Positions 13,950 to 17,836 of a stretch of DNA of 36,675 nucleotides are shown piece by piece. This stretch comes from Lachnospiraceae bacterium (GTDB lineage: Bacteria > Bacillota > Clostridia > Lachnospirales > Lachnospiraceae). Position 1 is the stretch's first letter. Each line of letters starts with the position of its first letter. Below the pieces are notes generated by a model. The model was not told the origin of the DNA. It was given only the letters and a program-made list of their open reading frames with translations, and did no database searches. A program made the translations under genes and the position numbers. The DNA lies in contig JAAWOG010000035.1 in NCBI GenBank assembly GCA_022799355.1, positions 1 to 36,675 on the forward strand, given 5' to 3'.

Positions 13950-14018
13950 AGCCCTATAGAATCTTTGATATCTATTAATTTTTCAATTCAAAATACTATT
14001 AAACAGGAGGCACACAAA

Positions 14019-16055
14019 ATGAGACCAGAATGGACAGGTTTTGTAGGCAACAAATGGGATCACGAAGTTAACGTACGTGATTTTATCCAGAAGAACTATA
14101 CCCCTTACGAGGGCGATGATTCTTTCTTGGCTGAGCCTACACAGAACACAAAAGACTTATGGGAAATGGTACTGGATCTTTCCAAAAAAGAACGTGAAGC
14201 AGGCGGTGTACTGGATATGGACACCAAAGTTGTTTCCACCATTACTTCCCACGGCCCCGGCTATCTTGACAAGAACAAAGAAACTATCGTAGGTTTCCAG
14301 ACAGACGCTCCTTTCAAGAGATCCCTGCAGCCTTACGGCGGTATCCGTATGGCTGAAAAGGCTTGTGCGGATAACGGTTATGAAGTAGATCCCGAGATTT
14401 CCGAGTTCTTCTCCACCCACAGGAAAACACATAACGCAGGCTGTTTCGATGCTTACAACGCTGAAATGAGAGCCTGCCGTTCTTCCCATATCATTACAGG
14501 GCTTCCCGATGCTTACGGCAGAGGCCGTATCATTGGCGACTACAGACGTGTTGCTCTGTACGGTATTGACAGACTGATCGAAGACAAACAGGATCAGAAA
14601 AATTCCACAGGACGTGTTATGACCGATGAAGTGATCCGTCTTCGTGAAGAGATCTCCGAGCAGATCGTTGCTCTGAAGATGATGAAGGAAATGGCTGCTT
14701 CCTATGGCTGTGATATTTCCAAACCTTCCACCAACGTACAGGAAGCTATCCAGGCTACTTACTTTGGTTATCTGTGTGCCGTAAAGGAACAGAACGGTGC
14801 TGCAATGTCCCTTGGCCGTACTTCTACCTTCCTTGACTGCTACGCTGAGAGAGACTTAAAGAACGGCGTATTTACGGAAGAACAGATCCAGGAATTTGTT
14901 GACCACTTTATTATGAAGCTGCGCTGCATCAAATTTGCGCGTACACCTGAGTACAACCAGATCTTCGCAGGCGATCCGGTATGGGTAACCGAATCCCTCG
15001 GCGGTATGGGCGTTGACGGCCGTTCTCTTGTAACAAAGATGAGCTTCCGTTTCCTGCACACACTGACAAACCTGGGCGCTTCTCCGGAACCCAACCTGAC
15101 AGTTCTCTGGTCCACAAGACTGCCTGAGAACTGGAAGAGATACTGTGCGAAAATGTCTATCCAGACTTCTTCCATCCAGTATGAGAACGACGATCTGATG
15201 AGAGTGACTCATGGCGATGACTACGGTATCGCATGCTGTGTATCCTCCATGGTTATCGGTAAGGAAATGCAGTTCTTCGGCGCTCGTGCGAACGTTGCAA
15301 AATGTCTGCTGTACGCATTGAACGGCGGTGTTGACGAAGTTACCAAGAAACAGGTTGGTCCTAAATATCGTCCTGTAACCGGCGATGTTCTGGATTACGA
15401 TGATGTTATGGATAAATTCATGGATATGCTGGAATGGCAGGCAGATGTTTATGTAAACACTCTGAACATCATTCACTATATGCATGACAAATACTGCTAT
15501 GAGAGAGCTGAGATGGCTCTGCATGACAGAGATGTAAAACGTTACTTTGCAACAGGTGTTGCAGGTTTGTCTATCGTAGCTGACTCCCTTTCCGCTATCA
15601 AATACGCAAAGGTAGAAGTAGTTCGTGATGACGACGGCGTGATCGTAGACTTCAAGACAACCGGCGATTTCCCGAAATACGGCAACGATGATGATCGTGT
15701 TGACAGCATCGCTCAGGATGTTGTTCACAGATTTATGACAGCGATCAGAAGACACCACACCTACAGAAACGGTGTTCCTACAACTTCCATCCTTACCATC
15801 ACTTCCAATGTAACATATGGTAAGGCTACGGGTAACACACCTGACGGACGTAAGAAAGGTCAGCCGTTTGCTCCTGGTGCTAACCCGATGCACGGCCGTG
15901 ATACCCACGGTGCGGTTGCTTCTCTGGCTTCCGTATCCAAGCTGCCGTTCAAAGATGCTCAGGATGGTATTTCCAATACCTTCACGATCATCCCCGGCGC
16001 ACTTGGCAAAGAAGATCAGGTATTCTCAGGCGATATTGAACTTGAATTAAAGTAA
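14019..16055 (+). CDS. pflB: Pyruvate formate-lyase catalytic chain lacking the glycyl-radical domain
   Basis: Formate C-acetyltransferase core (pyruvate + CoA to acetyl-CoA + formate). The 678-residue chain matches PFL from its usual N-terminus ([20 protein letters not shown]) through the active-site Cys406-Cys407 in GIACCVSSM. It continues through [22 protein letters not shown] to [17 protein letters not shown], then stops. One-piece PFLs continue for about 80 residues with a linker and the RVSGYA radical loop; here that part is the separate gene at 16408. Sum of both chains: 759 residues, equal to a normal PFL. The start is ATG 14019 with AGGAGG upstream; an open extension to 13920 overlaps the promoter and is not real. 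The last codons lie in a tandem duplication that continues past the stop. Confidence 0.95.
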
Positions 16056-16085
16056 TCTGAACTTGAATTAAAGTAATCTGAACTT
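16038..16085 (+). repeat. Tandem 21-bp duplication across the pflB stop codon
   Basis: A 21-bp unit (16038-16058) is repeated perfectly at 16059-16079, with the first six bases of a third copy at 16080-16085. The first copy encodes the last residues ELELK and the stop codon; the second lies after the stop. It marks the exact point where the chain ends before the missing radical domain. Confidence 0.95.
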
Positions 16086-16114
16086 AACGAACTTTCTATT
16101 ATCATGAATAATCA

Positions 16115-16137
16115 GCGGCTGCCGGTCAGGCAGTCGC
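16115..16137 (+). other. Stable intercistronic hairpin, no T-run
   Basis: GCGGCTGCC (16115-16123) pairs with GGCAGTCGC (16129-16137) over nine pairs, one of them G-U, with a 5-nt loop. No T-tract follows, so it is not a standard terminator. It ends 6 nt before the GGAG of the next small ORF. It may protect the pflB mRNA 3' end after cleavage or tune translation of the downstream genes. Confidence 0.7.
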
Positions 16138-16155
16138 GGAACTGGAGTAAAATAA

Positions 16156-16365
16156 ATGGATGATAAAGCTTTGATCGACGATCTTGTTAAAATGCTGGAT
16201 TCCGGTATGGCGGGCGGCGTTGGCCATGTGAACATCGATTACGATGAAAAAAACGAACAGGATAAATCAGTTCAGACGATGGGCTGTACGGACTGTTCGA
16301 GAACACCGCTTGCATGCAGTGTTCCGACTCTGGAACAGGGTTTGGACGATTACTCGGGTTCCTGA
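16156..16365 (+). CDS. Small PFL-locus protein, radical-domain-like start with Cys-rich tail
   Basis: A 69-residue ORF of unknown function, with GGAG 8 nt before its ATG. Residues 8-30 (DDLVKMLDSGMAGGVGHVN onward) align without gaps to residues 10-32 of the radical-domain protein encoded next ([19 protein letters not shown] onward): 8 of 23 identical plus several conservative changes, keeping D-LV--LD, G, H and N. The parts then diverge. Instead of the NRDMLLDA helix and RVSGYA loop it has a short acidic stretch and a tail with Cys44-x2-Cys47-x6-Cys54 (GCTDCSRTPLAC). It cannot carry a glycyl radical. It could be a paralogous docking or protective subunit, or a metal/thiol module for repair or activation. 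Its position in the operon ties it to PFL; the function is inference. Confidence 0.8.
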   Translation: MDDKALIDDLVKMLDSGMAGGVGHVNIDYDEKNEQDKSVQTMGCTDCSRTPLACSVPTLEQGLDDYSGS

Positions 16366-16407
16366 ATATAATTTTAAAAAAAGTAAATACTATGGAGGTA
16401 AAAAACA

Positions 16408-16653
16408 ATGGCAGCATCAAATTCAGGACAGGTTGATAACCTGGTATCCTTACTGGATGGCTATGCAACAAAAGGCGGTCATCATTTAAATGTTAACGTA
16501 TTAAACAGAGATATGTTACTGGACGCTCAGAAGCATCCTGAGAACTATCCTCAGCTTACAATCCGTGTTTCCGGTTACGCTGTGAACTTCATTAAGCTGA
16601 CACCCGAACAGCAGGCTGACGTTATCTCCCGTACATTCCATGAAGCTATCTAA
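16408..16653 (+). CDS. Stand-alone glycyl-radical domain of PFL (GrcA/YfiD-like)
   Basis: An 81-residue protein corresponding to the C-terminal domain of PFL. After a short Asn/Ser/Gln-rich start come the linker helix (LVSLLDGY), [18 protein letters not shown], and the radical loop TIRVSGYA with Gly56, 25 residues before the C-terminus as in one-piece PFL. It ends [18 protein letters not shown]. The PFL activase would abstract hydrogen from Gly56. GrcA (YfiD) in enteric bacteria is a spare radical domain that rescues oxygen-cleaved PFL; here the catalytic chain has no radical domain of its own, so this protein must be an obligatory subunit. A strong GGAGG precedes the ATG. Confidence 0.95.
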
Positions 16654-16681
16654 GTAGACATTCTTCAGGAAATACATGCAT

Positions 16682-16720
16682 AAAATTCCCCTGAGGCAAA
16701 AGCATCAGGGGAATTTTAAA
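16682..16720 (+). terminator. Strong intrinsic terminator after the radical-domain gene
   Basis: A perfect 13-bp inverted repeat (16682-16694 with 16705-16717; AAAATTCCCCTGA and its complement) around a 10-nt loop, with the T-run inside the 3' arm. It lies between the PFL subunits and the activase gene and should lower activase expression relative to its substrates. A second small hairpin (16732-16737 with 16743-16748) sits just before the activase ribosome binding site. Confidence 0.9.
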
Positions 16721-16767: not shown

Positions 16768-17532
16768 ATGAAAGGACGTATTCATTCACTTGAAAGTTTT
16801 GGCACCGTAGATGGTCCCGGCACCAGATTTGTCGTATTTGTGCAGGGCTGCCCGATGCGTTGTGCCTATTGCCATAATCCCGACACCTGGGATATGGACG
16901 GCGGTACGATGATGGAACCGGAGGAGATCATCGAGCAGTATGAAAAAAACCGCCCCTTCTATAAGGACGGCGGTCTGACCGTCACCGGCGGGGAGCCTTT
17001 GATGCAGGTCGATTTCCTGATCGATCTGTTTACACTGGCAAAGGAGCATGATATCCATACCTGTATTGACAGTTCCGGTATTGCTTATAAGGAAAACAAC
17101 ACCGCTTTTATACAAAAGCTGGACAAACTTATGCCGCTGACCGATCTTGTTATGCTGGATATCAAGCATATTGATCCGGAAAAACACAAAGAACTGACGA
17201 GCCAGCCCAACGACGGTATTCTCGCTTTTGCAAAGTACTTAGATCAAAAACAGGTCCCCGTCTGGATTCGCCATGTCATTGTACCCGGACTTACCGATGA
17301 TGAAAAATACCTGTATCAGCTTGGGTATTTTATCGGTCATCTTTCCAATTTAAAGGCGCTTGACGCCCTGCCCTACCATACAATGGGTGAGAAGAAATAT
17401 GAAAGCATTGGCATGGAATATAAGCTTCATGGTGTTCCCGCCATGGATCAGAAAACTCTTCTTGTCAAAAAACAGGCTATTCTGGACGGTATAAAAGCCG
17501 CAAGAAAGGAATCCGAAGGCTCCGGAAACTGA
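16768..17532 (+). CDS. pflA: Pyruvate formate-lyase activating enzyme (radical SAM)
   Basis: A 254-residue radical SAM enzyme that uses S-adenosylmethionine and a [4Fe-4S] cluster to make the glycyl radical. It begins MKGRIHSLESFGTVDGPGTRFVVF, with the cluster motif CPMRCAYC (CxxxCxxC) around residues 29-36. The SAM-binding TVTGGEPLMQ and the late motif DALPYHTMGEKKYESIG are present, as in PFL activases. Length is normal, and there is no extra ferredoxin insert of the kind seen in activases for other glycyl radical enzymes. AAGGAG precedes the ATG. No separate promoter is obvious, so expression may depend on read-through of the preceding terminator. Its natural target here would be the 81-residue stand-alone domain. 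Confidence 0.97.
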   Translation: MKGRIHSLESFGTVDGPGTRFVVFVQGCPMRCAYCHNPDTWDMDGGTMMEPEEIIEQYEKNRPFYKDGGLTVTGGEPLMQVDFLIDLFTLAKEHDIHTCIDSSGIAYKENNTAFIQKLDKLMPLTDLVMLDIKHIDPEKHKELTSQPNDGILAFAKYLDQKQVPVWIRHVIVPGLTDDEKYLYQLGYFIGHLSNLKALDALPYHTMGEKKYESIGMEYKLHGVPAMDQKTLLVKKQAILDGIKAARKESEGSGN

Positions 17533-17665: not shown

Positions 17666-17836
17666 ATGGCATTTGTAATTAACGATGGTTGTATCGGCTG
17701 TGGTGCTTGTGCTGGTACCTGCCCTGTTGGCGCTATCTCTGAAGGTGACGGAAAGTTCGTCATTGACGAGAGCGTTTGCATCTCCTGTGGTGCCTGTGCA
17801 GGCGGTTGTCCCGTTGGCGTTATTTCCGAGGCTTAA
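17666..17836 (+). CDS. 2[4Fe-4S] clostridial-type ferredoxin
   Basis: A 56-residue low-potential electron carrier. Two cluster motifs, CIGCGACAGTCP and CISCGACAGGCP, give the classic paired CxxCxxCxxxCP pattern at about residues 9-20 and 37-48. The start MAFVINDGCIGCG is typical, and AAGGAGG precedes ATG 17666. Clostridial ferredoxins serve pyruvate:ferredoxin oxidoreductase, hydrogenase and Rnf. The position directly after pflA suggests it may also reduce the activase cluster, which is inference from context. A terminator follows at once. Confidence 0.96.
   Translation: MAFVINDGCIGCGACAGTCPVGAISEGDGKFVIDESVCISCGACAGGCPVGVISEA

Follow-up and report, generated by a model that had tools for sequence, protein, structure and literature searches.

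Pyruvate formate-lyase (PFL) is a textbook single-chain enzyme. The E. coli PFL (PflB, TIGR01255; PDB 1h16) has its barrel, cysteine pair, radical domain sequence, and PFL activase in common with the locus described here; however, it is one chain, whereas the split PFL of this locus has a separate radical-domain gene and a third, Cys-bearing element. A 2025 paper still describes PFL as a homodimer built from one polypeptide, while noting that glycyl radical enzymes (GREs) may have further accessory subunits that are as yet unannotated (PMC12590467).

A radical domain that acts in trans to a PFL without its own is likewise seen in GrcA/YfiD. In E. coli, this protein serves the repair of damaged enzyme, whereas the small chain here, a GrcA3 protein, belongs to a standing architecture. 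The two also differ in build, with GrcA/YfiD comprising 127 a.a with a disordered N-terminal half and the small chain 81 a.a without that half. A family model for GrcA3 already exists in NCBIfam (NF038360, 'autonomous glycyl radical cofactor GrcA3'), which the small chain matches just over the cut-off. The model line names an autonomous glycyl radical cofactor only, and a split PFL and a third element are unmentioned. Given this model, the separate domain is less unprecedented than the original prediction had claimed, while the obligatory split that it proposed is well supported at the genomic level. Within the open-access literature (subscription journals and most preprints lay outside the scope of the search), we found no paper with GrcA3, a split form of PFL, or the third element as a subject of its title or abstract. 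What is already known is the radical domain as a separate repair part and the name GrcA3; the standing split PFL with its third element appears to be new.

Among solved structures, the chains closest to the large chain are PDB 38lb and 38la (both 'Formate acetyltransferase'). The 38lb chain (739 a.a) was not matched by the radical domain, and its C-terminal extension contains two Cys, like the large-chain tails described below; judged by its sequence, it looks like a split-type large chain that has already been solved. The 38la chain stops at the domain boundary, which may be natural or a property of the construct. A split PFL that is spread through a gut-bacterial family comes naturally in two or three parts, so that the loading of the radical, docking, and repair after oxygen damage become separable for study.

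Layout of the split locus

The window, i.e., the whole stretch of DNA that was analyzed (36,675 nt from a Lachnospiraceae bacterium), carries the split locus on the + strand, with the genes in the order large, intervening, small, and activase. The features of the locus are as follows:

14005..14010, + strand: ribosome-binding site AGGAGG of the large gene, read off the sequence
14019..16055, + strand: catalytic PFL chain, 678 a.a, without radical domain (TIGR01255 and Pfam profiles)
15234..15239, + strand: Cys406-Cys407 codons, aligned to the E. coli Cys pair
16037..16085, no strand: 21-bp tandem repeat, 2.3 copies, spanning the stop codon of the large gene
16156..16365, + strand: intervening gene, 69 a.a, with a radical-domain-like front (GVGHVN) and the tail GCTDCSRTPLACSVPTL; unnamed family
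16394..16398, + strand: ribosome-binding site GGAGG of the small gene, read off the sequence
16408..16653, + strand: radical-domain subunit, 81 a.a, GrcA3 (NF038360)
16573..16575, + strand: Gly56 codon, aligned to E. coli Gly734 (radical site)
16681..16718, + strand: strong hairpin separating the small gene from the activase gene (-25 kcal/mol, z -6.0)
16768..17532, + strand: PFL activase, 254 a.a (TIGR02493, 295.1 bits; cut-off 231.75)
17666..17833 of the window: small two-cluster ferredoxin gene downstream of the activase, with Fer4 matches (Pfam)

The large chain scores 1094.2 bits against the PFL model TIGR01255 (cut-off 994.2) and covers positions 2–665 of the 744-position profile, with the small chain covering positions 663–743. 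The Pfam Gly_radical family (PF01228) divides in the same manner, as the large chain stops at profile position 50 and the small chain spans positions 50–106 of 106. The glycyl radical domain, which members of the PFL family carry in the same chain, is thus encoded here by a separate gene. Residues 10–80 of the small chain align with residues 683–758 of E. coli PFL, which places Gly56, located 25 residues before the small-chain end, at the position of Gly734. The Cys406-Cys407 pair of the large chain is invariant in 20 aligned sequences (the window and 19 relatives). The original prediction of a 678-residue catalytic chain with Cys406-Cys407, ending at the radical-domain boundary, therefore agrees with both the TIGR01255 and Gly_radical profiles, and its assignment of the 81-residue gene at 16408 as the radical domain, with Gly56 as the radical site, is borne out by the alignment to E. 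coli PFL. Against GrcA3, the small chain scores a marginal 159.2 bits (cut-off 158; 158.0 bits in the genome search, still over), and against GrcA/YfiD (TIGR04365), it scores 99.3 bits, which is below the cut-off of 170. A predicted fold of the large chain, based on a 20-row alignment with rows at least 91% identical to that of the window, was unusable (mean pLDDT 32.5).

Given that the 21-bp tandem repeat spans the stop codon of the large gene, the split could be read as a sequencing or assembly error, or as a programmed frameshift that yields one chain. However, the large chain ends without the radical domain in 80 of 80 loci (the best 80 of 585 relatives, 91–97% identical), all of which also contain the intervening gene. 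The small gene follows downstream in 78 of these loci, and the contig ends first in the other two (L040 and L067). In the window, the large and small frames lie in different registers, each with its own ribosome-binding site, and the downstream genes have their own starts. Gene order also varies elsewhere, with the small gene located behind the activase in one genome (G154; L155) and the order large, small, intervening in another (G371). Both the error and the frameshift readings were rejected on these grounds, and we give them practically no credence; the separate genes of the original prediction, not joined by any single frameshift, stand.

The strong hairpin ahead of the activase gene may perhaps lower activase expression. 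It was absent from the output of the terminator consensus scan.

The radical subunit in its own genome and across the family

The genome that contains the window (G000, 97.9% complete) has one TIGR01255 match over the cut-off, the split chain itself, and all others reach at most 118.9 bits. With Pfam, six Gly_radical matches and five PFL-like ones were found in it. Three other PFL-like genes were typed, with PFL2-3 as their best family (one over its cut-off, two below), and one weak PFL-like match sits on contig C84. One of the Gly_radical matches (L003) resembles NrdD. A check of the genome for a full-length PFL, as had been proposed, hence returned no second match over the cut-off at this level of completeness, and what marks GrcA/YfiD, the repair of a PFL that is otherwise complete within its cell, was not found for the small chain. 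As the genome offers no second PFL that passes the family cut-off, the enzyme should depend on the small chain.

A second free-standing GrcA3 gene (81 a.a) is located on contig C42 (1159–1404, - strand; L002/L193), apart from any PFL gene and adjoining a regulator-like gene (278 a.a). Such an orphan gene is also present in the four genus mates examined, with partly different neighbors. The presence of the orphan in the same genome fits an exchange of the radical subunit after damage, which is plausible.

The split occurs in nine of the nine genus genomes searched (the own genome and eight others). In a sample of 200 genomes of the family, 173 had a TIGR01255 match, and 142 of these were classed from the matches listed, giving 70 split genomes (three of which also have a fused form) and 72 with fused forms only. 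Among the matches listed, a free-standing GrcA3 gene is present in 70/70 split genomes vs 0/72 fused-only genomes, counts in which the genomes are related to one another and lower-scoring free radical domains of the fused-only genomes could be unlisted. Beyond the family, the matches listed for a class sample of 291 genomes are nearly all fused, with split forms in G414, G371, and G504; G034, which belongs to the same order, is also split. The original prediction had called for a survey of relatives for the same gene split, and it is this split that recurs at all of the best 80 of 585 loci, throughout the genus genomes searched, and in 70 family genomes.

Since oxygen-cleaved PFL is known to use GrcA/YfiD as a spare part (PMC8683613), GrcA3 might be taken as a mere spare part for another full-length PFL, with the split gene being a decaying copy. 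This we consider very improbable. In the own genome, no second match exceeds the PFL cut-off; the large chain is intact, sharing 91–97% identity with those of the relatives (best 80 of 585); and GrcA3 accompanies the split in the counts of listed matches given above; the spare-part reading was rejected for these reasons. We infer instead that the large chain and GrcA3 form an obligatory partnership. The predicted natural split of PFL with an obligatory separate radical domain thereby gains genomic support, namely the single match over the PFL cut-off in the genome and the link of GrcA3 with the split.

A tree was computed from 80 large chains (644 columns, radical domain excluded, quick method), with rows that include the window and six of the 80 named loci; the whole large chain was unreadable in L157, L175, L177, L179, L213, L214, and L216. 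The split forms, including those of other families, make up one starred clade, inside which six fused forms are nested in two places. Transitions between fused and split forms number at least three, all of which are forced by starred branches. One split followed by two re-fusions is the simplest reading, with the direction not fixed by the count. A single clade of all fused forms is rejected modestly (p-AU 0.033), which makes the count of re-fusions less certain than the switching between gene and tail described below. The six nested fused proteins (L174, L176, L201, L203, L204, and L202) score 147–162 bits against GrcA3, compared to at most 141 bits for the other fused forms among those listed, and one of them (L202) has kept a Cys stretch as a linker. 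With their GrcA3-like domains, these proteins show from nature that barrel and small chain belong together.

The intervening gene and the cysteine tail

The original prediction placed the parts of the locus at the correct coordinates but treated the intervening gene as a mere separation between them, which is incomplete, as either this gene or an equivalent Cys tail accompanies the split. Across 50 aligned intervening proteins, the invariant residues include G23, H24, N26, C44, C47, C54, P57, T58, and L59, and the cysteines are spaced C-x2-C-x6-C, with other spacings in more distant proteins. The dN/dS ratio is 0.011 between the window and L012 and has a median of 0.12 over 400 pairs, by which measure the gene is under purifying selection.

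The intervening protein of the window matched no Pfam family and no NCBIfam family over its cut-off, and Gly_radical was not found among the 50 members at E up to 10. GrcA3 was matched weakly by 38 of the 50 (best E 0.0014). Using hhalign, residues 3–30 of the intervening protein aligned with residues 5–32 of the small chain (probability 50.5%, E 1.6e-4, 28 columns), which is a weak likeness, and the RVSGYA glycine loop is absent from the intervening protein sequence. A profile search of solved structures gave no match, a single-sequence search gave one at chance level (E 1.9), and phage records gave none. The predicted fold (50-row alignment) was unusable, with a mean pLDDT of 53.9. We did note a longer intervening protein of 85 a.a at two loci (L073, 3510–3764; L091, 7146–7400), where an insert precedes the Cys tail.

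Matches to the intervening gene were found in 53 of the 200 family genomes and 10 of the 291 class genomes (the samples overlap), with one of the latter ten lying inside the own domain of a fused PFL. Among the matches listed, the gene is present in 42/70 split vs 0/72 fused-only genomes. The intervening-type gene of G010 is on a different contig from the PFL (L200, 1129–1401) and has as its neighbor what is presumably a MoxR-type ATPase gene.

Where split genomes have no intervening gene, the large chain itself ends in a Cys tail (e.g., ECGNQACNIPNI and DGCGDMACKVPTLHKGIDDD; compare CTDCSRTPLACSVPTL in the gene product). At least two Cys are present in the large-chain tail of 27 of the 28 split family genomes without the gene, the exception being G154, which has a split PFL with neither intervening gene nor Cys tail. 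Two further Cys-tailed large chains come from other families, making 29 in all. Conversely, Cys was found in none of the 47 readable large-chain tails from 48 genomes chosen for having the intervening gene and is also absent from the large-chain tails of the 80 named relatives. The motif [ASP]C.[IV]P[NTI] is shared by 80/80 intervening proteins and 16/29 large-chain tails, with the form CAC.EP in its place in seven of the 29; the Cys patterns of the tails vary (CACC, CC, C-x3-C, and others). Within the window, translated in all six frames, the motif occurs once, in the intervening gene itself. The radical-domain-like front of the intervening protein is missing from the large-chain tails.

Among its split rows, the tree requires 10 changes between gene and tail, and a topology that keeps one form as a single group is rejected (p-AU 2e-50). 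This repeated exchange in a split background, together with the absence of the gene from all 72 fused-only genomes (among the matches listed), argues for one function shared by the intervening gene and the large-chain Cys tail. Split PFLs, as far as their sequences tell, seem to need a third element, as gene or tail, and it is the interchange of the two that points to such a required element.

Being small, Cys-bearing, and next to a GRE, the third element might be a metal- or Fe-S-binding accessory subunit of the benzylsuccinate synthase (BSS) or 4-hydroxyphenylacetate decarboxylase type, which would steer radical transfer to the active-site Cys without a docking role. PMC12590467 describes BSS-beta/gamma as small, Cys-bearing partners of a GRE, as the intervening protein would be, and BSS-beta, a [4Fe-4S] binder, as promoting thiyl radical formation. 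However, BSS-beta/gamma have a HiPIP-like fold and a [4Fe-4S] cluster, whereas the intervening protein has no family match, and the number and spacing of the cysteines in the third element vary, unlike a fixed cluster site. None of the 50 intervening members matched the accessory-subunit families of Pfam, and we regard an accessory subunit of this type as unlikely.

Another explanation, which we rate as quite unlikely, is that the Cys tail mimics the cysteine finger of the enzyme (IACCVSSM) and acts as a decoy. It would touch the glycine loop of a radical subunit that is free or undocked, thereby parking, protecting, or quenching the radical. For 17 distinct tail octamers, the Cys406/407 loop was the best large-chain match in 11 and among the top 5 in 16. 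However, this rank is driven by the Cys itself, as only 7/17 fell under 0.05 when the first three letters were fixed and the rest shuffled, and the octamers were chosen by the motif that 16 of the 29 tails contain, seven of the 29 being of the CAC.EP form. The likeness of the tail to the cysteine finger is only suggestive.

Proposed docking of the radical subunit

Our preferred reading, which we consider probable, is a natural split PFL of a Lachnospiraceae type that comprises three gene products and, in addition, the activase, in which GrcA3 would be obligatory and exchangeable and the third element may aid docking. The large chain would provide the barrel with Cys406/Cys407, and the GrcA3 chain, as the sole radical domain, would be activated at Gly56 by the adjacent activase. 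It would then dock in trans into the slot that is filled by the C-terminal domain in an ordinary PFL. Following oxygen cleavage at Gly56, a fresh GrcA3 copy could be supplied from the operon or the orphan gene.

The split deprives the large chain of its own C-terminal stump, and the Cys-bearing third element (intervening protein or large-chain tail) may take over the job of this stump, marking and shielding the empty slot and assisting the docking of the radical subunit; its cysteines may also guard the radical. The importance of such a stump is known from E. coli, where PFL residues 696–733 serve as the recognition element for YfiD binding and activation (PMC8683613). With PFL lacking residues 696–759, YfiD binding was undetectable and 32-fold less radical was formed than with oxygen-cleaved PFL plus YfiD; once activated, the YfiD complexes of this shortened PFL matched wild-type activity (PMC8683613). 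Given that residues 696–733 are needed in E. coli and that the large chain found in nature is even shorter, replacing this recognition and covering the slot would be the most likely tasks for the third element, and we tentatively assign it the role of a docking aid in place of the E. coli-type stump, with somewhat less than even confidence. The front of the intervening protein overlaps approximately the first 15 residues only of the 696–733 element, and as this front is missing from the large-chain tails, the docking idea must there be carried by the Cys tail by itself.

A bolder reading, which we find doubtful, is that these enzymes would be the first GREs with a dedicated Cys-bearing radical keeper, a protein or tail that replaces the missing domain, imitates the Cys finger, holds the slot and the glycine loop, and lets the radical subunit load, park, and swap. 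Such a keeper, if true, would suit a strict anaerobe that meets traces of oxygen.

Outside the PFL family proper, we observed that a PFL2-3-type GRE subfamily is also split at this boundary (L194, L195, L196, and L197; also L198 and L199). No intervening gene was seen in the split loci of this type that were examined. The two large chains typed, those of L194 and L197, score 586 and 579 bits, respectively, against a cut-off of 678. From this second case, it seems that a detachable radical domain is a design that has arisen repeatedly. The large chains of the subfamily are 746–779 a.a long, the radical-domain genes encode 78–96 a.a and adjoin them in most cases, and transporter-like genes lie beside them.
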